A stretch of DNA of 64,000 nt, from NCBI RefSeq assembly GCF_009663395.1, contig NZ_QKNW01000003.1, positions 1-64,000 on the forward strand, given 5' to 3'. Numbering within the stretch: the stretch's first letter is position 1; the number at the start of each line of letters is the position of its first letter. The stretch comes from Halosegnis longus. Lineage in GTDB: Archaea; Halobacteriota; Halobacteria; Halobacteriales; Haloarculaceae. The notes beneath the pieces were generated by a model. The model was not told where the DNA came from. It searched no databases and was given only the letters and a program-made list of their open reading frames with translations. Positions 31,030-62,716 of this stretch are shown here, in pieces. The translations under genes and the position numbers were made by a program.

Positions 31030-32526
31030 TCATTCGAGTGCCTTGATGTTGATCAGCGGAGTCAACGTTCGCTCGACCGTCGCCGTCTCGTCGATGTAGC
31101 GCTGGATCGTCGCAGCTTCCTTGTACGCATCCGGCGCTTCTTCGAGGACGGAGTCGGTCAGATCAGACGACGTGATACCGGACAGCTGTGCTGCAACGTC
31201 GTCTGGGTCGATCTCGTTGCGCGCCTCTCCACGTGACATGACACGCCCGGCGCCGTGGGGCGCAGACTGGTTCCACTCGTCGTTTCCAACACCGCGCGCG
31301 ATGATGGACCCCTCGGCCATGTTGAACGGGATGACCAGTTGCTCACCGTCGCGAGCCGAACAGGCTCCCTTGCGCATCACGCCATCTTCGAAGTCGATGA
31401 AGTTGTGGACCGACTCGATCTCGTCGACGAGACGCGTCATGCCACAGACGCTTGCAAGCGCAGCGCGAACCTGCTTTGCGATCAGCTTCCGCGACGTGGA
31501 GGCATACTGCTGGGCGAAGATCATGTCGATGTAGTAGCCGGCTGCCTCCTCGCCGTACAGTGCATCGTGTGTTCGGTTTCCGTCCATGCGCGATGGGTGT
31601 GCCTCCCGGATCCGATCGTGCATCTCCTCGATCTCGACGCCGTCGAAGTCTTCCCGAATCGCGTCACTGTCGATGTACGACCGGCCTTGTCCACCGTGGA
31701 ACCATTCGAGCAGTTCCTCGCGACTGACGTCGTCAACGTCGGGGACGATGTATGGCTTGAGCTCGTCGTCGAGATTGTCGGCGATCCAGTCTGCGCGACG
31801 AAGCTCCGTCGCACGGTTCTGCCAGTGCTCACCGATCTGCTTGCCCAGATGGCGTGACCCGGAGTGGATAACGACCCAGATCCCGCCATCCTCGTCTTCG
31901 GCAAGCTCGATGAAGTGATTCCCACCACCGAGCGTGCCCAGTTGGCTGATCGCCGTGTTGACGTTCGCGCCGACTCGGCCCGACAGCTCGGAGAAGTAGT
32001 CAGCGTCGTACCCATCGAACCAGTCCGGATCGAGCTCGAGGCCCACCTGCTCGCGGAACGCTTCGAGCTTCTGGGTACACTCGTCCCACGGCATCTCGTC
32101 GACGAAGTTGAATCCCGGCTCGGACGGGACCATGTTCGGTGCGACCTTGTCCGTGTAGTCGTAGTGGGCCATCGGGACGTGCTTCCGGACGGCATCGACG
32201 ATATCGTCGTGCATGTCCTCGGGGAGGAGATACTCTCGATCGTAGTCGTGGGGAACGAGACGGTATGCGAGCATGCCACAACCGATGTCGACTCCCACGA
32301 CGTTCGGGACGACACCATCGTCGAGTTCCATCGTGAAGCCGATCACGCTCTCGCTGTTCGGTTCTGGGTGCGTGTCAGGCATCACGCGGATCTCGTTCGT
32401 GAAGGCCGGATGGCTCGCGTATGCCTCAATGAAGTCGAGGGTCATGTCCTCGATCTCGGACTCGTCGAGCCCTTTCACGATCGCGCTCGTCACGTCACCG
32501 TCAACGTGGGTTTCTGTGTCTGTCAC
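31030..32526 (-). CDS. rtcB: RNA ligase RtcB
   Basis: 498 residues from GTG 32526. All family blocks are visible: NVVGVDIGCGM, TLGGGNHFIELAED, VIHSGSRHLG, ESVHNFIDFED, VMRKGACSARDG and NQSAPHGAGRVMSR with the guanylylated His. RtcB joins 2',3'-cyclic phosphate (or 3'-phosphate) to 5'-OH RNA ends using GTP and Mn, in tRNA splicing and repair. In a virus the likely use is repairing tRNAs cut by host anticodon nucleases, or processing its own RNAs. The start lies ~26 bases from a promoter box, so the mRNA is probably leaderless. Full length, no broken motifs. Confidence 0.93.
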   Translation of the reverse strand: MTDTETHVDGDVTSAIVKGLDESEIEDMTLDFIEAYASHPAFTNEIRVMPDTHPEPNSESVIGFTMELDDGVVPNVVGVDIGCGMLAYRLVPHDYDREYLLPEDMHDDIVDAVRKHVPMAHYDYTDKVAPNMVPSEPGFNFVDEMPWDECTQKLEAFREQVGLELDPDWFDGYDADYFSELSGRVGANVNTAISQLGTLGGGNHFIELAEDEDGGIWVVIHSGSRHLGKQIGEHWQNRATELRRADWIADNLDDELKPYIVPDVDDVSREELLEWFHGGQGRSYIDSDAIREDFDGVEIEEMHDRIREAHPSRMDGNRTHDALYGEEAAGYYIDMIFAQQYASTSRKLIAKQVRAALASVCGMTRLVDEIESVHNFIDFEDGVMRKGACSARDGEQLVIPFNMAEGSIIARGVGNDEWNQSAPHGAGRVMSRGEARNEIDPDDVAAQLSGITSSDLTDSVLEEAPDAYKEAATIQRYIDETATVERTLTPLINIKALE

Positions 32527-32552
32527 ACCAGTAGCGTATGGTGGAACGTAGG

Positions 32553-32568
32553 TAAGTCTACCGGGAGC
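32553..32568 (-). promoter_or_regulatory. Leftward promoter box before rtcB
   Basis: Forward TAAGTCTACCGGGAGC is one of four close copies of a box that precedes leftward genes. The TATA-like part is centred ~26-30 bases from the GTG start of rtcB. Confidence 0.6.
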
Positions 32569-32572
32569 GAGT

Positions 32573-33919
32573 TCAGAAAACGAACGACTGGACCAGGACT
32601 GCGACAGCGAAGATAAGACACCAGATTGCTGCACCACCGACAGCAGTGCTGAATCCATCCGGGTCGAGATCTGCGATCGACCGTGCGCTCTTCGAGCGGT
32701 GTGGGCTTTCGTAGAAGACGAGCAGTGGGAAGGCAGCTATCGCGACAAACGTTGCGAGACCGCCGTGTGCGAGCGAGCCCAGCGACTGGGTCGTACTCAA
32801 CATCCCACCCTCCTCGATTGAATCGGATCCGATCCCATCGTCGTCGTCGCGGTGTCGGTCGCGATAGCTCTTGAACTCTGCTAGGTCCCGGTCGATTGCG
32901 ACAGACCACTGCTCGCGTGATTCGGAGTACTCGACGGGAACTTCGTGGGTGTCGAGTAGTTCTGTGTTGGTGAGCCCGACGTTGGCAGCCCGACAGAACG
33001 CACCGAACGGGTCGTCGGGGTCCGTTGGTTCATCATACCGGATCTTCCCGGTTGAGTTATCCGGCAGTGCCAGGAGGATGACGATCTGTTCACCGTACGG
33101 TGAGACGTTGAGAATCTTCGCCGGACCCTCGTTCGCATAGTCACGCCCGATCGTTTCCATCCGTTCATGGAAGTTCTGCTCGTCATCGATCTCGCGTGCG
33201 TTGTAGTCGATCTGGATCTCGTGATCGAAGTCCGGTTCGTCCTGATGTGTCGCCGTTTCGACGGCAGTTTCGTCGGTAGAGTCGTCCATTGATTCGTCGT
33301 CTGTTGTATCGGCTGATTCGTCGGTGGATGGCTCAGTCGTGGCTGCCGGACCACCAGTACCAAACATCGCTTCGTTTCTCCCAACATCTGTCATCGAATC
33401 GGACAGCGTTGCTTGCCGTTCTTCTTCAGCGGAGATGATCTGGCCCCACAGCTCCTCTGAATCCTGTGTGGGGAACGCAATACCCGACCACGACGAGATA
33501 TTCATCACGAAGCTAGGTGATGACGACATCTCTTGCTCGAACGAAAGTGACGCACGGTCCAGACCATGTTCCTGTGAAACCCACACAGTGACATCGGCGA
33601 TTAACCAGCCTGCTGCAATCAGCATGAGCCGTTCGGGCGTGTTGCGAAGTACTGTCTTGATGAAGTCATCAAGGCTCTCCTCGCTTGCGCCACCATTCGT
33701 GTCGAAAATCGCTCCTGAGTTCCTGATGTACCGCTCTATGTTTGGCCGGAGTCCAGAATTGAGGATCCCGTGAACGATGTCGAGTGTATCATCGACAATC
33801 TCGATGCTCCCATTCGGGAACGTCGAAGACGCGATCGCGGATAGCTTTCTGCCCGGTACTGAGCGATTGTGCGACAGTGGGAATTCGGTATCATCGAACT
33901 CCGTTTCTGTGAATGGCAT
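32573..33919 (-). CDS. Large protein with two C-terminal membrane segments
   Basis: 448 residues. The first ~370 are soluble and acidic with a Thr/Asp/Ser-rich linker near 200-230. Two hydrophobic segments near the end (GGLATFVAIAAFPLLVFYE and VGGAAIWCLIFAVAVLVQS) anchor it. One more moderately hydrophobic helix lies near residue 97 (RLMLIAAGWLIADVTVWV). No family recognised; a membrane-anchored interaction or exclusion protein is conceivable. A promoter box lies 32 bases upstream. Confidence 0.65.
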   Translation of the reverse strand: MPFTETEFDDTEFPLSHNRSVPGRKLSAIASSTFPNGSIEIVDDTLDIVHGILNSGLRPNIERYIRNSGAIFDTNGGASEESLDDFIKTVLRNTPERLMLIAAGWLIADVTVWVSQEHGLDRASLSFEQEMSSSPSFVMNISSWSGIAFPTQDSEELWGQIISAEEERQATLSDSMTDVGRNEAMFGTGGPAATTEPSTDESADTTDDESMDDSTDETAVETATHQDEPDFDHEIQIDYNAREIDDEQNFHERMETIGRDYANEGPAKILNVSPYGEQIVILLALPDNSTGKIRYDEPTDPDDPFGAFCRAANVGLTNTELLDTHEVPVEYSESREQWSVAIDRDLAEFKSYRDRHRDDDDGIGSDSIEEGGMLSTTQSLGSLAHGGLATFVAIAAFPLLVFYESPHRSKSARSIADLDPDGFSTAVGGAAIWCLIFAVAVLVQSFVF

Positions 33920-41007: not shown

Positions 41008-44000
41008 TCACCCCCACGCGCCGAGCGTCGACTGTGACCCTTCGGTAATCGTCTCGTCCCAGTCTTGCCCCATCGTCACGAGGATACCATTCATTTTCCC
41101 ACGCAGCTCCTTCTCGACGATCTCGTCGAGATCGATGACGAACTCGTCCGGGAGTCGGTCCGGATTCTCGACAGCCAGTCCGTCGATCTCACGCCCGACC
41201 TCCGGTGGATCAGGTCGACCATCGATCGGGTAGTCTTCATACTCGTAGACCGCTGGGTACTCGTCACCGCGAACCTTCGCGATGGGCACCTTCTTCGGCT
41301 TCGACCCCTCGCCCAACTCCTCCCAGAGGAAGTGGTCGTTCGCGTATTTCGCTCCGCGGTACGTCGGCCCCGGTGTTGCTACGTAGCGCCCACCGTTGGC
41401 CTCGTCTGTCTCGGTCACCTCGTAGTTGCTGTCTGCCTCGAGTTCTTCTGTGTCCTTCCAGCCGTATTCATCGAGTGGCTTCGAGACACCCTTCGGTCTG
41501 GCGAGCTCCGATAGTGGTCGCTCACCGGTCTCGACCTCGTCGACGAGTTGGCGCAGGAACGGCTCGATATCATCGAGCGGGTCACTCGACAGCAGGATAT
41601 CCGTCAGTACCTGGAGCTGTGCCTCCTTCGTGATCGGGGCCGTGTCCGACCGGACGTATTCGAAGCCGGTGATGTCAACGTTGTCCGTTGGGGTGCTATC
41701 CGCTAACGGTCCATCCTCGTAGGTGCCGTAGTCGACGGTCTGCTCGTGTTTCAGCTCGCTCAGGTCGGCCGAATCAGCGAGGGCGTCACCCGGATACTCG
41801 TCGGCATCTGGCGTATCGAGCCACCCATCATCGTCATCCCAGACGAGATGTTGGGCGTACCGCTTCTGGACACCGGTCGTCTCTGGCTCATCGGCGTCGA
41901 GGTCCTGCATGTAGAACAGCCTGCTCGCGAGACTTTCGAGCTCGACTGCCAACTCGTGTTCATCTTCCGGTGCAAAGCCGAACCGCTCTTGGACGAACTC
42001 GTCATAGCTCACCTCGGTGAATTCGACCGCTTCCTGAGCCCACTCGTGTGCAGTCTTCAGGTCAGGCGCATTCGGGATCGACGTTGTGCAACTGTCTGTG
42101 TCCCCACCGACCAGTGTTGCATCATCGTCATAGTTGTCGTTGAGGTACTGCGTGAACTCATTGGCAGTGTGCTTGATAGTCATTCGACCAGCGAGGGTGA
42201 TACCCTCTGCAATCTTCCGGTTGTACAGACGGAATCCCTTCCCGCCTGCTGAGTTGCTGTCACCCAAAACACCGTAGACGCTCTGCCCGACCCACTGGAA
42301 GCGTCCATTTCGGCCTGCAAGCAGTGTATGATTATCCTCGACGGTGACACAGTAGACGCCATCGTCGCGGGTGGTTCGGCTCACCGACGTGTCAACAAGG
42401 AAACCGTCATTACTGTCTCTGATCGCGATTTCCCACGCTCCATCACGCTCGCCGACGCGTGGCTTCACACCAATCTCAACACAGAGTCGGACGAAATCGT
42501 CCTTCAACTGGTCGCTACTAGTGTAATAGATACCGTGGTCGTCACCATCGCCCAACATCATCGTCTCTAACAGCAGCTCCTTCTGGTCGTGTGAGGCTTC
42601 CGCAAAGACGAACTCTGGGATCTGCTTGTTCTTGCTTCCTGCACCACACAGTGAGTCGAACAGTTCTCCATAGATAGCAGACCCGATGCTGTATCCTTGT
42701 TCGTCGATAGACGGCTCTAATCCCATCCGCTTGTAGAGTGCATCAAGGCGCTCGCGCCCGATATCTGTCTCTTGGGCGATGTTCCACACAGCTGTCTCTT
42801 CTCCATCAGGCCAGTAGACACTACCTTCGGTGATGTGCCATCCGAGTAGCTCGATGAAGTCATCGCCATCGAACTGGTATGGTCGGAATGTCGACCCATT
42901 ACCACTAGGATGACACAGCCTGATGTCTGTCGACAGTTCCTCTAACGCCGACTGGTGTTGCTCGAACGTCTCACCAGCGAAGATGAACCCATAATGGTAG
43001 TTACTGCGCTTCTTTTCGCACCCATCTGGTAGTGATGAGCGGAATGCATGCCCGTGGCAGTCATACTCAGTAACGACATCGAACGACCCAGAGTCCAGGT
43101 GGTCGGTAATGTCAACTTCGTCGATCCCATCTCCATGGTTCATTTCCCAGTCATTGCATAGTTTGTAGTAGCCACCATCTTCGAGGTTGCCGGCCTCAAC
43201 GAAGTCGAACGTATCTGTACCGTGCTCACGGACCAACATTCTGTGGTTCGGCGTCACCTGGAAGTCGGTACGGACTGTGTCGATATCGACAAGGTCACCG
43301 TCATAGTCGTCGTATGCGTGAACGTCTGTGACCGGCTTTTGCTCTACTTCCTGCGTTTCAGGGTCGATGGAGTAGACCATGTCGCCGACAGACAACTCAC
43401 GGATATTGCTGACACCATCTGGTGTGATCACGTCTGTGTCAGGAGTGAAACAGTTGGTGACGCGTTTCACAGCCGAATATAGGTCCCCCGAGTAACGATA
43501 CTTGAGCTCGATGAGTTCGTCGATCGTATCTCGGATGAACGACTCGCTCACGTCTGGCTTCAGCACATACTCCCAGTCGATCTGCGCATCGAGCATCTCA
43601 CGAACGCCACCGCTCTGTGACTTGACACCCTTCACGTCGTCCGGATTGACATGGGCGGTCCCCTCAGGAACGTCCGATGGGTCAGTCGTCACGATGTACG
43701 GCTCACCCTTCGGGACGACAGCAAAGTCCCGATTGTCGACCGGGAACCTGTACACATCATCCTCTGTGTACTCCGAGGCGTCTAGTTCTTCGGGTCCACC
43801 AACAATCGTCTCCTCGCCCAGATTGAACATCGAGAGCGTGGACGGGTAGAGAGAACTGAGATCGGGGTATACGCAGTTCTTGTGGACTCCCGGAAGAACA
43901 TCGAAGACGTGGGCCCCATGATACACAGTCTCCTCGGGCTCCTCGTTCGTGGGCAACCCGAGCCCCTGTTCGTGGGCACGCCGGAGGAACAGCGTGTCGA

Positions 44001-45441
44001 GCATCGGGCCGTTGTTGTTACAGGTGTCGTACAGGGCCCCCGTCACGTCACGGAGATTCTCGTAGAGGCTGACGAGGCCGGTCTCCGACTCGATCTCCTC
44101 GGTCGCCTGTGTGTCACGGATCGAGTAGACGAGGAACTCGATCGGCTCCTCACGGCGTGCCTCATCGAGCTCGTCACCGTCGATCCCAATCTTCCCGACA
44201 CCGAGCTCTGCTTCGGCAACAGCATCGAGCCCGTAGGACGGCAACTGACGGGACTGCGTCTTCTTGTAGGCATCGAGCATATCGAGCGTCGACCGGCCAG
44301 AAATCTGATAGCCGACCTCCTCGTTGCCGTTGTACTCGTCTTTCCAGACACCAGGCACCGCGTCACCGACCGACCAGTTCGTGATCCCCCGCGCCTGGAC
44401 CTGATACGAGCGAGAGATCATGTACGGATGGTCGAAGTAGTCGGAGTTCCACCCCGTCACGATGTCCGGGTCGATGGCGTCGAACCATCGGTGGAAGTCG
44501 TCCAACATCGCCGTCTCGTTGTCGAAGATGTGGACATGTTCACGCCCGATGTCGGCATCGAACCGTTCGTTTGCACCCGCAACGACGTCATCGACCAGCT
44601 CATCTTCGTCGGGCCACGCCTGATGTGAGAGTGCCCACAGATGCAGCTGGTCCTCGTAGCTATCGTGTGCAGACACAGCAGTGATCGGCTTGCGAGCGCG
44701 CTCTGGATCGGGAACGCCACCACCATCGGTCTTCACCTCGATATCGTACGTACACACACGTGCGCTCACATCGGGAGCCTCGGTCGGGCTGATCTCCTGT
44801 GTCGTCGCCGGCGCTCCAGTCTCGTCGACAGGGCAGTTGTGGTACGTGAAGCTGTCACCCTCGGTCGGCACCTCGAGTCCGCGGTAGATCTCCGTCGAGA
44901 TCAGGAATCTCCGGACGAACGGAACGTCGCCCTCGAAGTCGTCGTCGATAGCGTCGCGCAGCGGGTCGTGACGCCCACTCTGTGACCCAACGTGTGATGG
45001 CTCGATGGCGTAGATGGTCGCCTGTGCGTCGCCTCCAAGCGTCTCGCTCGGGTCGTCAGTGTGAACGACGGGTGTGTCACCAGCCTCGCTGAGAATCTCG
45101 GCGATCACCTCGGGGCTCGTATCCGGCTCGACCGCGTCGATGATCGTGTGCCAGTCAGTCTCGCGAAGGTCCGTCTCGACGGCGTACACACGCCGGTCGT
45201 TGAGAACGTGCAGTGGGTCGGCAGCGAAGGCGGATGCCAGCGTGTGGAAGTACGGTCGAAATCCACTGACGGTGATGTTACGTAGTGTCCCATCCGCCCG
45301 CCGACACCGAAGGTACACCTCTGGTGTAGGAATGCGGTACCCACTCTCGACCACCTCCGAGTGTGCGTCGATCAACAGTAGCGACTCCGTGGTATCTGGA
45401 GCCTGTGAAACAGTCTCTCCAACTGATGCGCCTAAATCCAT
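41008..45441 (-). CDS. B-family DNA polymerase with intein
   Basis: 1477 residues. Exonuclease motifs: CTYDIEVKTD (~232), NSDYFDHPYM (~332), YSIRDTQA (~438). Polymerase motif A VYPDLSSLYPS (~520); motif B is KRVTN | SVYG, split by a 390-residue intein (residues 664-1053); motif C VGGDTDS (~1111). After splicing it is a 1087-residue proofreading replicative polymerase. ATG 45441 abuts CTGTCGC. The intein is at the standard motif B (pol-a) site, so the gene is non-functional unless spliced. Codon use is uniform outside the intein, which is slightly more AT-rich. Confidence 0.93.
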   Translation of the reverse strand: MDLGASVGETVSQAPDTTESLLLIDAHSEVVESGYRIPTPEVYLRCRRADGTLRNITVSGFRPYFHTLASAFAADPLHVLNDRRVYAVETDLRETDWHTIIDAVEPDTSPEVIAEILSEAGDTPVVHTDDPSETLGGDAQATIYAIEPSHVGSQSGRHDPLRDAIDDDFEGDVPFVRRFLISTEIYRGLEVPTEGDSFTYHNCPVDETGAPATTQEISPTEAPDVSARVCTYDIEVKTDGGGVPDPERARKPITAVSAHDSYEDQLHLWALSHQAWPDEDELVDDVVAGANERFDADIGREHVHIFDNETAMLDDFHRWFDAIDPDIVTGWNSDYFDHPYMISRSYQVQARGITNWSVGDAVPGVWKDEYNGNEEVGYQISGRSTLDMLDAYKKTQSRQLPSYGLDAVAEAELGVGKIGIDGDELDEARREEPIEFLVYSIRDTQATEEIESETGLVSLYENLRDVTGALYDTCNNNGPMLDTLFLRRAHEQGLGLPTNEEPEETVYHGAHVFDVLPGVHKNCVYPDLSSLYPSTLSMFNLGEETIVGGPEELDASEYTEDDVYRFPVDNRDFAVVPKGEPYIVTTDPSDVPEGTAHVNPDDVKGVKSQSGGVREMLDAQIDWEYVLKPDVSESFIRDTIDELIELKYRYSGDLYSAVKRVTNCFTPDTDVITPDGVSNIRELSVGDMVYSIDPETQEVEQKPVTDVHAYDDYDGDLVDIDTVRTDFQVTPNHRMLVREHGTDTFDFVEAGNLEDGGYYKLCNDWEMNHGDGIDEVDITDHLDSGSFDVVTEYDCHGHAFRSSLPDGCEKKRSNYHYGFIFAGETFEQHQSALEELSTDIRLCHPSGNGSTFRPYQFDGDDFIELLGWHITEGSVYWPDGEETAVWNIAQETDIGRERLDALYKRMGLEPSIDEQGYSIGSAIYGELFDSLCGAGSKNKQIPEFVFAEASHDQKELLLETMMLGDGDDHGIYYTSSDQLKDDFVRLCVEIGVKPRVGERDGAWEIAIRDSNDGFLVDTSVSRTTRDDGVYCVTVEDNHTLLAGRNGRFQWVGQSVYGVLGDSNSAGGKGFRLYNRKIAEGITLAGRMTIKHTANEFTQYLNDNYDDDATLVGGDTDSCTTSIPNAPDLKTAHEWAQEAVEFTEVSYDEFVQERFGFAPEDEHELAVELESLASRLFYMQDLDADEPETTGVQKRYAQHLVWDDDDGWLDTPDADEYPGDALADSADLSELKHEQTVDYGTYEDGPLADSTPTDNVDITGFEYVRSDTAPITKEAQLQVLTDILLSSDPLDDIEPFLRQLVDEVETGERPLSELARPKGVSKPLDEYGWKDTEELEADSNYEVTETDEANGGRYVATPGPTYRGAKYANDHFLWEELGEGSKPKKVPIAKVRGDEYPAVYEYEDYPIDGRPDPPEVGREIDGLAVENPDRLPDEFVIDLDEIVEKELRGKMNGILVTMGQDWDETITEGSQSTLGAWG
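42283..43452 (-). mobile_element. Intein with LAGLIDADG homing endonuclease in PolB
   Basis: 390 residues from Cys (CFTPDTDVITPDG) to a terminal VGQ, followed by Ser. Block A and block B (FQVTPNHRML with TxxH) are present. Two dodecapeptide-type motifs, LLGWHITEG and MMLGDGDD, mark a LAGLIDADG (DOD) endonuclease. Block F reads VEDNHTLLAG. The last residue is Gln, not Asn, and the penultimate one is Gly, not His; Gln-ending inteins are known but rare. Inserts between Asn and Ser of polymerase motif B. Confidence 0.9.
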
Positions 45442-58634: not shown

Positions 58635-58760
58635 GATGGCGTCCAATTCATGCATACACGGTATTCCGGGCGTCACATCGTAGCATAGCGAACGTGATAC
58701 TTGTGCGCCGTAGTGGCCGATACGACACGTATATCGTGCCAACACGGAATATCTCGCTAC

Positions 58761-58779
58761 CCACTCACCGTCCGGGGGG
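58761..58779 (-). repeat. Origin box on the 3' side of the Orc1/Cdc6 gene
   Basis: CCACTCACCGTCCGGGGGG is the reverse complement of the GGTGAGTGG/CCCCCC boxes on the other side of the gene, with the same four-base spacer. It lies two bases beyond the Orc1/Cdc6 stop. Confidence 0.7.
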
Positions 58780-58781
58780 TG

Positions 58782-60062
58782 TTACTGTCCGTACAGCGTT
58801 GCGAGCTCCGGCGTCGAGTTGATCAGTCCCTCGCGCGTGTGCCCGACATCACCCTGGAGTGAGAACGTCCGGAACATCCCGTTGTCACCACCAGCCTGCT
58901 TGCGCGACTCGAGCAGCCCTGTCGTGACGTGCTTGTTCAGTGCATCGAGTGCCCGGTTGTAGCTCTTCGGCTCCGTCTCCGTGTCTCTCGAGAGTGTCTG
59001 GTAGACGTCATGGATCTCGCTCGTCCGGAACCACTCCTTGTCCGGGTTGTTCCGTGAGAGCCGGCAGATCGCAAACAGTAGCAGCTTCCCAGCAAGCGGT
59101 GTTCCCTTCACGAGATTCATCGCGATCTCGACCTCGACGAGCTCGTCTGCATCACGAACGTGCTGGGGTGTGACCTGCTCGTCACCCTGCTCTTCGGCGA
59201 GGTCGCCGGCCTTCCGGAGGAGCTGGACTGCCCGTCGTGCGTCACCGTGCTCTTCTGCTGCGAGCTCTGCCGTCGTCTCGATTGTCTCGTCCGCGAGCGC
59301 GCCCGCGCGGAATGCGTCACGACGATTGCCCAGGATTGCGACCAGCTGGTCGGTCGTATACGGAGTAAACGTGCGGTGTTCCGGCTGGAGGGTCGACTGG
59401 ACGCGAGACTCGATGTCCCCACGGAAGTCCAGGTCGTTGGAGATCCCGATCGTCGTCACCGGCACCTCGACGCCGTCTTTCGACTTCGTCCGCGAGAGCG
59501 TGTAGAGGATCTCGTTGATCTCCGGGAACTTATCGATCTCGTCGATGACAACGACGAGTCCACCGGAGAAGTGCTCCTCGACGGTGGGCCAGAGCTTCTT
59601 CTTCCGGTAGTGCTCGGCCGAGAGCCCGGAGAATGGGACGTTGATGTCCGTGTCTGCCTTCGTGTTCACCTGCGTCGCAATCTCACGCCACGCCGACGTA
59701 CACGAGCTCTGCGGGTCGGGATTGAGATAGACGCTCGCGATCGGGTCGTCCGTGTCGGCGGTGACGCTTTCGAGTCGCTCACAGACGTGGCGTGCCGTCA
59801 GTGTCTTCCCGGTCCCGGTCTCGCCCCACTCGAGCACGTTGTCGACACCAGCAGCGCCCGAGCGACGCATCTCACGAAGATTCTTCGCGAGGAACGTGAT
59901 GTGGTCGTCTCGGCCAACGATCCGGTCGGAGCCGGGGATGTTGTCGACTTCGAGTAGTTCCTTGTCGGCAAAGACGCCGGCAGACTCGGCCTCGTCCGAG
60001 CTCTCGTCGTCGTCCAGTGCCAGCAGTTCGTCGACGGTCGATTGGCGCGTGTCCTCGCTCAT
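58782..60062 (-). CDS. orc1/cdc6: Origin initiator Orc1/Cdc6
   Basis: 426 residues from ATG 60062 (an upstream in-frame start would extend it by seven residues). GRDDHITFLAKNLREM, Walker A LEWGETGTGKTLTAR, Walker B VVVIDEIDKFPEINEILYT, sensor 1 TIGISNDLDFRGDIESRVQ, then a C-terminal winged helix (YQTLSRDTETEPKSYNRAL). It binds origin boxes as an AAA+ initiator and loads the helicase. Boxes flank it on both sides, so virus and initiator form a self-contained replicon like haloarchaeal plasmids. Confidence 0.92.
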   Translation of the reverse strand: MSEDTRQSTVDELLALDDDESSDEAESAGVFADKELLEVDNIPGSDRIVGRDDHITFLAKNLREMRRSGAAGVDNVLEWGETGTGKTLTARHVCERLESVTADTDDPIASVYLNPDPQSSCTSAWREIATQVNTKADTDINVPFSGLSAEHYRKKKLWPTVEEHFSGGLVVVIDEIDKFPEINEILYTLSRTKSKDGVEVPVTTIGISNDLDFRGDIESRVQSTLQPEHRTFTPYTTDQLVAILGNRRDAFRAGALADETIETTAELAAEEHGDARRAVQLLRKAGDLAEEQGDEQVTPQHVRDADELVEVEIAMNLVKGTPLAGKLLLFAICRLSRNNPDKEWFRTSEIHDVYQTLSRDTETEPKSYNRALDALNKHVTTGLLESRKQAGGDNGMFRTFSLQGDVGHTREGLINSTPELATLYGQ

Positions 60063-60074
60063 ACTACAGCTGTG

Positions 60075-60682
60075 TACACCCACTCACTAATAGGTGTCGC
60101 GTCCTCACGGTGAGTGGACCCAAACACACACCCCCCGTGCGGTGAGTGGGACGCCCCCCGTGTGGTGAGTGGATACAGACGAGACACACCGGAATCGTTC
60201 ACGAACGGATTCAGTCGATGCGTCAGACACCCCCCACGCGGTGAGTGGTACTGGTCGATGTGAACGAGTGACATGACCCTCCCCCACCCCTGGTGGTGAG
60301 TGGTAGGGCATGGTGTGGGCCTCCGTTGGCGTCGGTGGTGGCGACCGGGCCGAGTTCGAGCCGACCCGAACCCCGCACTCGCTGTGTCTCGCACGGGTAC
60401 GGTGCCGAACCACCGTACCCGCGCTGTACGCCTACTTGGTTGGCTGTTCACAACGAGGTATAATAAAGATACTGATAGCGGTGCGGTGGGGAAGCGGTGG
60501 TTGTCGCTGGGACGGGGCTGCATGGGGACGGCACCAGCTGTACCGCCTGGAATCGACCGCATCAACCCGTCTACCGCCCCACCGTCTGTATCGTCTGGCC
60601 GACCGTCGCCGGGTGTGGCTGATTTCGACTGCGAACACTGCTGCACAGGGTGCCCTACCACTCACCACCTGGGGTGGGGGTG
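60075..60682. other. Replication origin: box array, dyads and AT-rich element
   Basis: Boxes of the form CCCCCC-N4-GGTGAGTGG occur at 60131-60149, 60154-60172 and 60230-60248. Partial or variant boxes lie at 60109-60117 and 60281-60303, and inverted copies at 60080-60087 and 60658-60682. A near-perfect dyad (GAATCGTTC/GAACGGATTC, 60192-60212) and a perfect one (CGGGTACGGT/ACCGTACCCG, 60394-60421) lie inside. GGTATAATAAAGATACTG (60457-60474) is the AT-rich unwinding element. The G-run plus conserved core resembles haloarchaeal ORBs but with a virus-specific core. No gene is supported between 60063 and 60772. Confidence 0.78.
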
Positions 60683-60772
60683 TATGTTGTTCTGTTGACA
60701 CCACGACGTTCGTACGAGATACGAACATGCAGACGCGACAGATTGACGGGATAGTCTCACGACCGTTCGCGT

Positions 60773-61024: not shown

Positions 61025-61447
61025 GTGTACAGACGAGAGCTGCTCTCGACGGTCGCAGCTGGCGCGGTCGCAACGACAACAGGTTGTGCAGCACTCCTCA
61101 ATCGAGAGCCGGCCTTCGAGGCAGTCCGATACTCCTTCGCGAGTGAGGCGCCATTCCGATACAGCGTCGAGCACGACGGCCAGGTCGTCGATCAGGACAC
61201 GTACCCACGCACGGACGGCCATTATCCCAACTGGACAATCTCGTACGACGAGGTCCCGAACACACTCACGCTGTTCGGCAGGCACGTCGCCGGGAGCGAT
61301 CTCGATTCGATCATGTTCGAGGTCCAGGGCGCCGTCACGGTTCGTGATGGGCCGGAGAACTGGCAGCGGATCATGAAGCAGTGGGGCAACGGCGACCATA
61401 CTGTCCAGGCGACGCTTGACCTGACGAGCTCCGAGCTCGATAGATAG
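61025..61447 (+). CDS. Twin-arginine lipoprotein
   Basis: 140 residues from GTG 61025. RRELLSTVAAGAVATTTGC gives a twin-arginine pair, a hydrophobic stretch and a lipobox ending at Cys21, the standard haloarchaeal Tat lipoprotein signal. The mature part is a small beta domain (APFRYSVEHDGQVV, NTLTLFGRHVAG). The virus thus makes a protein that is exported folded and anchored outside the membrane. Superinfection exclusion or surface modification are possible roles. No homologue named. Confidence 0.8.
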   Translation: MYRRELLSTVAAGAVATTTGCAALLNREPAFEAVRYSFASEAPFRYSVEHDGQVVDQDTYPRTDGHYPNWTISYDEVPNTLTLFGRHVAGSDLDSIMFEVQGAVTVRDGPENWQRIMKQWGNGDHTVQATLDLTSSELDR

Positions 61448-61515: not shown

Positions 61516-62358
61516 ATGACCGCTCGCGTCGCGATGTACTCCGCGAAGGGTGGGACCGGGAAGACGACAACGGCGATCAATCTCATGGGTGCCTGTGCTG
61601 CACAGGGACTCGATGTCCTCCTGGTCGACATCGACCCGCAGGGCAACGCAACTGAAGCGCTTGGCTTCTACGACGAGTGGGACGCCACGGCGCCAACGAT
61701 GTTCGATGTCCTCCTCGATGGTGCTGACCCGGAGCCACTGCTCCTCGAGCACGAGGAGTGTACCGTTTTGCCCTCGAACATGGACCTCCTCACGATCGAA
61801 CGTGAGCTCGCGTACGACCACAAGGCCGACAAGCCGGTCCTCTCGTATCTGGACCAGGCCCTCGCGCAGGTAGACGACGAGTTCGACCTGACGATCATCG
61901 ACTGCCCACCGAGCTTTGGCTTCCTGACCGACTCGGCACTGTATGCAGCCGGGTCGGTTGTCATTCCAGCGCTGGCTGAATCGACGAGTCAGCGTGCCGT
62001 GGAGCTACTCTTGAAACAGATCGTCCGGCTCGAGGGTGAGGTGAACGCCAAGGACTCCCCGGATGCGTACGACCCGCTGCGCGTCGCCGAGGTCGCTGCT
62101 GTGGCCAACCGTGTCGAGACGACGGGCGATGCCGAGCGAATGGTCGAGTGGATGCAGACGACGTTCAGCGGAACGCCAGTGTTCGAAGTTCGAAAGCGAG
62201 TCGCCCTCCGTCGCGCGATCGAGAACCATCGGTCGATCCACGCGCACAACGAGTCGTGTGACATGGAGTCAGTGTACGACGACCTGGCCGAGACTGTTCT
62301 CGACCACGTCGGTATCGACCACCAGACAACCGAGACACCACAAATCTCCAATGAGTGA
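61516..62358 (+). CDS. parA: ParA-type partition ATPase
   Basis: 280 residues. Deviant Walker A YSAKGGTGKTTTAINLMGA at the N-terminus, LLVDIDPQGNAT (Walker A'/switch I), and DLTIIDCPPSFGFLTDSAL (switch II). It is a full-length Soj/ParA-like ATPase that positions DNA on the nucleoid. The next gene overlaps it by eight bases and is a probable partner. A TATA-like ACACTTATCC lies ~50 bases upstream. With Orc1/Cdc6 and the origin it makes a plasmid-like maintenance module. Confidence 0.9.
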   Translation: MTARVAMYSAKGGTGKTTTAINLMGACAAQGLDVLLVDIDPQGNATEALGFYDEWDATAPTMFDVLLDGADPEPLLLEHEECTVLPSNMDLLTIERELAYDHKADKPVLSYLDQALAQVDDEFDLTIIDCPPSFGFLTDSALYAAGSVVIPALAESTSQRAVELLLKQIVRLEGEVNAKDSPDAYDPLRVAEVAAVANRVETTGDAERMVEWMQTTFSGTPVFEVRKRVALRRAIENHRSIHAHNESCDMESVYDDLAETVLDHVGIDHQTTETPQISNE

Positions 62359-62716
62359 TGATGAATCAGCCGACGACGAGCGCGCACAGGATCTCCAACA
62401 ACTCCGAACCCGTGACCGAGGAACGGACCAGTCAACGACCGAGTCGACCGAGTCGAGCGACGACGAGCTCGAACCGGTCACACAACGCAACCACAGTACG
62501 TTCTATCTCTCAGATGAGATCCTGAACGCACTGGACGGGTCGCGCAAGGAACTCGAATATCTCGCCTCGAACGAGTTCCCCGATCTCGATCTCGAGAAGA
62601 ATCGCCATCTGCGCCCACTGGTGATCCTACTTGGGATCGAGCAGCTGGAGGAGATGGACATCGAGGATGTCATCGACCGGCTCGAATCTGACGACCGACT
62701 CGACCCGGTACAGTAG
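62351..62716 (+). CDS. ParA partner protein
   Basis: 121 residues from ATG 62351, inside the end of parA. N-terminal half is disordered and acidic (TESTESSDDELEP). The second half (RNHSTFYLSDEILNALDGSR, then PLVILLGIEQLEEMDIED) resembles a ribbon-helix-helix or other small DNA-binding dimer. Such partners bind a centromere site and stimulate ParA. Identified by position and size, not by motif. Confidence 0.7.
   Translation: MSDDESADDERAQDLQQLRTRDRGTDQSTTESTESSDDELEPVTQRNHSTFYLSDEILNALDGSRKELEYLASNEFPDLDLEKNRHLRPLVILLGIEQLEEMDIEDVIDRLESDDRLDPVQ

Follow-up and report, generated by a model that had tools for sequence, protein, structure and literature searches.

An Orc1/Cdc6 initiator gene bracketed by repeated C-run boxes, on a contig rich in virus genes, raises the question of whether these boxes form a replication origin and, if so, whether that origin is peculiar to the virus or belongs to a wider family of replicons. 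The window, by which we mean the whole 64,000-base stretch that was analysed, comprises bases 1–64000 of a 135,622-bp contig (hereafter C3) in a 2.77-Mb, three-contig haloarchaeal genome.

Turning to the identity of the contig, we found that C3 encodes terminase subunits, portal, prohead protease, capsid, tail sheath and baseplate proteins, and so carries the TerL, portal, major capsid and tail genes that define Caudoviricetes, along with a family B polymerase with an intein, a ribonucleotide reductase (RNR), a helicase, nucleotide genes and RNA-repair genes. Thirty-one called C3 ORFs matched Halogranum tailed virus 1 (HGTV-1, Halomagnusviridae), with gene order mostly kept up to 57 kb, a collinear structural block, and identities of 40% for TerL and 52% for RNR. 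Given this viral gene content and these matches, the label “virus” that a sequence-only reading had attached to the locus is right, and, judged by its genes, C3 is the genome of a tailed virus related to HGTV-1. Two other genomes with tail-sheath relatives gave no match to the C3 TerL. The polymerase gene (41008–45441, minus strand, 1477 aa) is interrupted by an intein-like Hint region, and the RNA-repair set consists of RlaP and an RNA ligase in C3 64001–135622 and RtcB at 31030–32658 of the window. Despite this set, no tRNA genes were found on C3, in contrast to HGTV-1, for which 36 are reported (PMC8651126). The contig starts with 35 Gs (positions 1–35), possibly a sequencing or assembly artefact, and a search for terminal overlap found none. 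C3 is a separate contig with ParA and Orc, and in the culture it could be free virus rather than a maintained plasmid.

The boxes themselves are far from a random scatter. The exact string GGTGAGTGG occurs seven times in the window (58761 on the minus strand; 60109, 60141, 60164, 60240 and 60295 on the plus strand; 60658 on the minus strand) against 0.84 expected and a maximum of 3 over 100 shuffles, and boxes with a run of at least four Cs, four free positions and this core number six in the entire contig, all within 58.76–60.68 kb (shuffle mean 0.01, maximum 1). The sequence-only reading had described such an array around the initiator gene, and in this it was correct, as it was about the flip in polarity at both ends (inverted boxes at 58761 and 60658) and about a gene-free region of some 700 bases holding a dyad and an AT-rich element (710 bp, 60063–60772); it miscounted the full CCCCCC-N4-GGTGAGTGG boxes, which number four rather than three (58761 on the minus strand and cores at 60141, 60164 and 60240). 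The elements of the array are as follows.

58760–58782, minus strand: full box ACACCCCCCGGACGGTGAGTGG, abutting the stop codon of orc, with the site and orientation of the box after orc in plasmid relatives
58782–60062, minus strand: Orc1/Cdc6 initiator, 426 aa, ATG at 60062 (433 aa from a GTG start at 60083)
60080–60094, minus strand: promoter half-box CCTATT-AGTGAGTGG, lacking a C-run and adjoining a TATA-like element
60109–60117, plus strand: GGTGAGTGG core without C-run
60130–60149, plus strand: full box CCCCCCGTGCGGTGAGTGG
60153–60172, plus strand: full box CCCCCCGTGTGGTGAGTGG
60229–60248, plus strand: full box CCCCCCACGCGGTGAGTGG
60281–60303, plus strand: left inner box CCCCCACCCCTGGTGGTGAGTGG, with the extended type of G-string; it forms the left half of the pair flanking the AT-rich element
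60391–60424, no strand: GC-rich dyad GCACGGGTACGGTG / CACCGTACCCGCGC, within the origin and not seen in the plasmid alignment
60432–60489, no strand: conserved central block that contains the AT-rich element GGTATAATAAAGATA (60457–60471), a putative unwinding element
60658–60680, minus strand: right inner box (CCACTCACCACCTGGGGTGGGGG on the plus strand), inverted relative to the left inner box

The two boxes nearest the AT-rich element combine CCCC-N4 with a longer GGGGTGGGGG string and form a 37-nt inverted repeat that is 89% complementary. Compositionally the element is modest, with 60421–60510 being locally AT-richer (AT 0.47–0.53 versus about 0.3 on either side). The dyad is a candidate for comparison with the G-rich enhancer repeat of oriC1, and an Rfam search found no match across 57.5–62.5 kb. 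A loose search that allowed three mismatches was not above chance (10 boxes versus 6.8), which leaves the exact boxes as the basis of the case. That result is what one would expect if the boxes were chance repeats in GC-rich intergenic DNA, an explanation to which we assign a vanishingly small probability: the counts of exact boxes, all in one 1.9-kb stretch beside orc, refute it, and plasmids share a homologous layout.

We compared the initiator with its relatives. The protein matched the Pfam families Cdc6_lid (6e-21) and Cdc6_C (2e-13), with 2qby_A and 2v1u as its best solved relatives, and shares 64–72% identity with an Orc1/Cdc6 clade encoded on plasmids and contigs of haloarchaea (sampled as 18 PLSDB plasmids and 15 loci); its next relatives outside that clade are only 34–38% identical. 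By identity and by tree it thus falls with the initiators of pNG600/pSTJ002-type replicons. Besides the present genome the plasmid clade occurs in 22 of 391 sampled haloarchaeal genomes, about 6%. In the Orc tree the virus protein branches as the sister of the entire plasmid set, and the tree therefore gives no direction of transfer or of change. The plasmid proteins (loci L017–L058) have nearly the same sequence in several families of haloarchaea, which suggests a recent wide spread. Among viral collections, IMG/VR yielded no relatives with Orc, portal, capsid or a five-member Orc alignment as query, and a tblastn search of INPHARED with Orc gave no match at 1e-5, with only SNJ2, ChaoS9 and HJTV-4 at E≤10; a scan beside the Orc matches of these three found no repeated G-string box. 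A structure prediction built on 12 close sequences had a mean pLDDT of 37.6 and supports no claim here.

The likeness to the plasmids extends from the protein to the DNA around it. In the plasmid loci, orc is flanked on either side by CCATTCACA-N4-GGGG boxes, and no GGTGAGTGG arrays were found there. The half-box core AGTGAGTGG (60080–60088, minus strand) begins 26 nt before the orc ATG and abuts the TATA-like element, and nearly all readable plasmid loci have a counterpart, CCTATATGTGAATGG, at an equal distance from the ATG. Virus and plasmids also have in common an identically oriented box at the orc stop and, in a multiple alignment, the inner inverted pair with its GGGGTG-type G-string. 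A 57-bp central block with TAATAAAGATA lies 128 bp from the left inner box in the virus and 125 bp in a plasmid; its alignment score of 43 exceeded the largest shuffle score of 29, and for plasmid loci L018 and L051 the score was matched by none of 500 shuffles. For locus L046, 441 of 500 shuffles reached the score, which is no homology signal, and central-block homology is weak or absent relative to some plasmid loci. Placement differs as well: the inner pair and AT element lie upstream of orc in the virus and downstream of it in the plasmids of the pNG600/pSTJ002 family.

Taken together, the locus has the parts of a haloarchaeal origin next to an orc/cdc6 gene, namely inverted ORB repeats ending in a G-string, an AT-rich element between inverted boxes, and an adjacent Orc1/Cdc6 of more than 300 aa with AAA+ and winged-helix domains, and the description of it as an Orc1/Cdc6-type origin is supported. 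The claim that the origin is virus-specific in kind is not supported, since a replicon family widespread among haloarchaeal plasmids has a homologous origin. With the pNG600, pSTJ002 and pHSR2-01 type of replicon the virus locus shares the initiator, the box architecture, the promoter half-box, the orc-stop box, the inner pair and the central AT block, and it differs in its box core and in the side of orc on which the origin lies. We viewed two plasmids of pNG600/pSTJ002 type: their genes include metabolic, defence or VirB4-type ones, and neither has an annotated capsid.

Against this shared layout, the box code itself differs. The core is CCACTCACC in the virus versus CCATTCACA in the plasmids, a difference at 2 of 9 positions, and all virus boxes, including the promoter half-box, read CCACTCAC where plasmid boxes read CCATTCAC, with a CCACTCACAC box in locus L044 as the sole plasmid exception. 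Each of the other, more distant Orc clades likewise has its own core ahead of a constant G-string (CTCATTCCGAAC, TTCACTCGGTGC, TTACAYTCGACAC and ACGWCGGAAACGT), and initiator-specific boxes are a general rule in haloarchaea (PMC3528665, PMC3936714). The canonical ORB of haloarchaeal oriC1 (TTCCANNNGAAACGANGGGGTGGGGG) resembles the virus boxes in its CCA start, its G-string and its inverted arrangement around AT-rich DNA; its core TTCCANNNGAAAC is not that of the virus boxes and lacks GAAAC, and its initiator belongs to a different clade, the virus Orc being 28% identical to that of the host. The host's chromosome has TTCCACYCGAAACGANGGGGTGGGGG boxes and its 181-kb replicon CATWYCGATAGAGGGGTGT boxes, so that three replicons show three box types, and the rest of the host genome holds only two stray virus-type boxes with one mismatch allowed. 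Because the two other replicons use different boxes, it is plausible that the virus replicon is independent of them. The core had been thought novel, and within the collections searched it is: among 391 haloarchaeal genomes no CCACTCACC-N4-GGGG array occurs elsewhere and the double-box pattern is confined to this locus; that pattern also had no match in IMG/VR. Single virus-type boxes occur in six other genomes of the 391, and none of the three such loci that we opened was at an orc gene.

For the initiator, a comparison of box cores with winged-helix residues among relatives had been proposed. The helix FRGDIESRVQSTL, which we take to be the initiator-specific motif, hardly differs between plasmid and virus, in line with the shared G-string, which is reported to be read by the AAA+ domain (PMC3936714). 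From plasmid to virus, the recognition helix shows G367S, E373D and L374A and the wing shows V383L, K387R, K389Q, E390A, Q394N, K396M, S399T and Y400F, where helix and wing are assigned by aligning the protein with 2qby and 2v1u. Subclades A and B of the plasmid proteins, with their common box, differ at 6 of 96 winged-helix and 34 of 212 AAA+ columns, while the virus differs from subclade A at 25 of 96 and 66 of 212. Cores and winged helices thus both differ between relatives, and the relatively faster winged-helix change on the virus branch is suggestive only (z about 1.5). Our best reading, in which one virus-type sequence stands for one event, is that initiator and boxes diverged together, with CCATTCACA on the plasmid side and CCACTCACC on the virus side.

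The setting of the origin on C3 is also informative. At higher coordinates lie two further genes of the neighbourhood:

61516–62358, plus strand: ParA partition ATPase, 280 aa (phrog_164, 6e-48), 45% identical to the phiCh1 partition protein
62351–62716, plus strand: 121-aa ORF overlapping the parA stop, by its position a possible partition partner

Between the origin and parA, a 140-aa ORF with a lipoprotein-like N-terminus occupies 61025–61447 on the plus strand of the window. The HGTV-1 genes that match C3 55317–57104 and 66388–67398 are near neighbours (HGTV1_124 and HGTV1_126), and the C3 stretch between these two matches holds orc, the origin and parA, which therefore look like an added cassette in the virus. 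No orc or parA is annotated in the 124 of 144 kb of HGTV-1 that we viewed, and tblastn for Orc found no match in HGTV-1. Other haloarchaeal tailed viruses, namely ChaoS9, phiH1 and phiCh1, do have ParA, and ChaoS9 also has Orc1 (PMC6471424), yet their genomes are 55–58 kb, identity to the ChaoS9 Orc is only 25%, and a search beside that Orc revealed no array of G-string boxes.

From these observations we consider it probable that the locus is the origin and initiator of an HGTV-1-like virus, with an Orc1/Cdc6 of plasmid type and diverged boxes, serving an independent replicon. In keeping with what is established for archaeal origins (ORB, G-string and titration of the initiator; PMC3528665, PMC3936714), Orc1/Cdc6 would bind the inner inverted boxes at 60281–60303 and 60658–60680, its winged helix contacting the CCACTCACC core and its AAA+ domain the G-string, and would open the AT-rich element at 60457–60471 before loading MCM. 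The boxes from the start of orc up to the inner pair, the promoter half-box and the orc-stop box may tune initiator supply by titration and autoregulation. Boxes likewise lie on both sides of the initiator gene at the chromosomal oriC2-cdc6E of Haloarcula hispanica, where the downstream ones control initiation by titration (PMC3936714); the likeness is one of layout. With ParA for partition, the virus probably lives, at least part-time, as a 135-kb plasmid, and the diverged codes should leave virus and plasmid replicons mutually blind.

This account can be questioned at several points. The array might be mainly an autoregulatory or titration array for Orc1/Cdc6, with replication starting elsewhere or by recombination via the virus family B polymerase. 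A half-box does sit on the orc promoter, an ORB-rich initiator-titrating region is known in Haloarcula hispanica (PMC3936714), and skew extremes fall near 28–36 kb and 120–122 kb rather than at 60 kb, one or more of them coinciding with a switch of coding strand, a pattern that neither favours nor excludes a start at 60 kb. In HGTV-1, whose PolB and RNR are related, the 124 kb that we checked contain no annotated orc; such a backbone can therefore replicate without one. We nevertheless regard this as improbable, as the inner pair and AT element keep the spacing and sequence of a plasmid origin, beyond what regulation would need. We allow an appreciable chance, though not the better one, that the origin serves the dormant plasmid state only and that lytic growth uses a second, different origin: C3 encodes a PolB and a helicase of its own as well as nucleotide genes, orc and parA stand together in the stretch absent between the matching HGTV-1 genes, and the phiH1 and phiCh1 proviruses are extrachromosomal circles, with their genes for replication and partition located in the region controlling provirus state (PMC6471424). 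Such a division of labour refines the origin reading and does not replace it.

A further doubt concerns independence, for virus and plasmid boxes might still be cross-recognised, making the elements incompatible. They share the G-string, the first three core bases and the initiator-specific helix, their cores differ little, and plasmid locus L044 tolerates its CCACTCACAC box. We find cross-recognition unlikely given that the change is present in every virus box down to the promoter half-box, that plasmid boxes are otherwise uniform, and that origin-specific initiators have been demonstrated in Haloarcula hispanica (PMC3936714).

Returning to the origin and initiator of an HGTV-1-like virus, a plasmid-type replicon with ParA in such a backbone, of which the known member lacks them in the part checked, would represent a route by which a large tailed virus becomes a plasmid. 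Although haloarchaeal genomes contain numerous Orc1/Cdc6 origins whose boxes differ, little is known of how such codes change or of the residues that read them. We tentatively propose, as something just short of probable, that a plasmid-family replicon in a large tailed virus switched its initiator–box code as a set, replication boxes and promoter half-box alike, which would permit the virus and its plasmid relatives to reside together without incompatibility, and that the pair is a natural two-state system for mapping the winged-helix residues that read the ORB core. In so close a pair, with initiators about 70% identical and homologous origins, the difference lies in two core bases of every box and a short series of winged-helix residues, which would make code switching directly testable.
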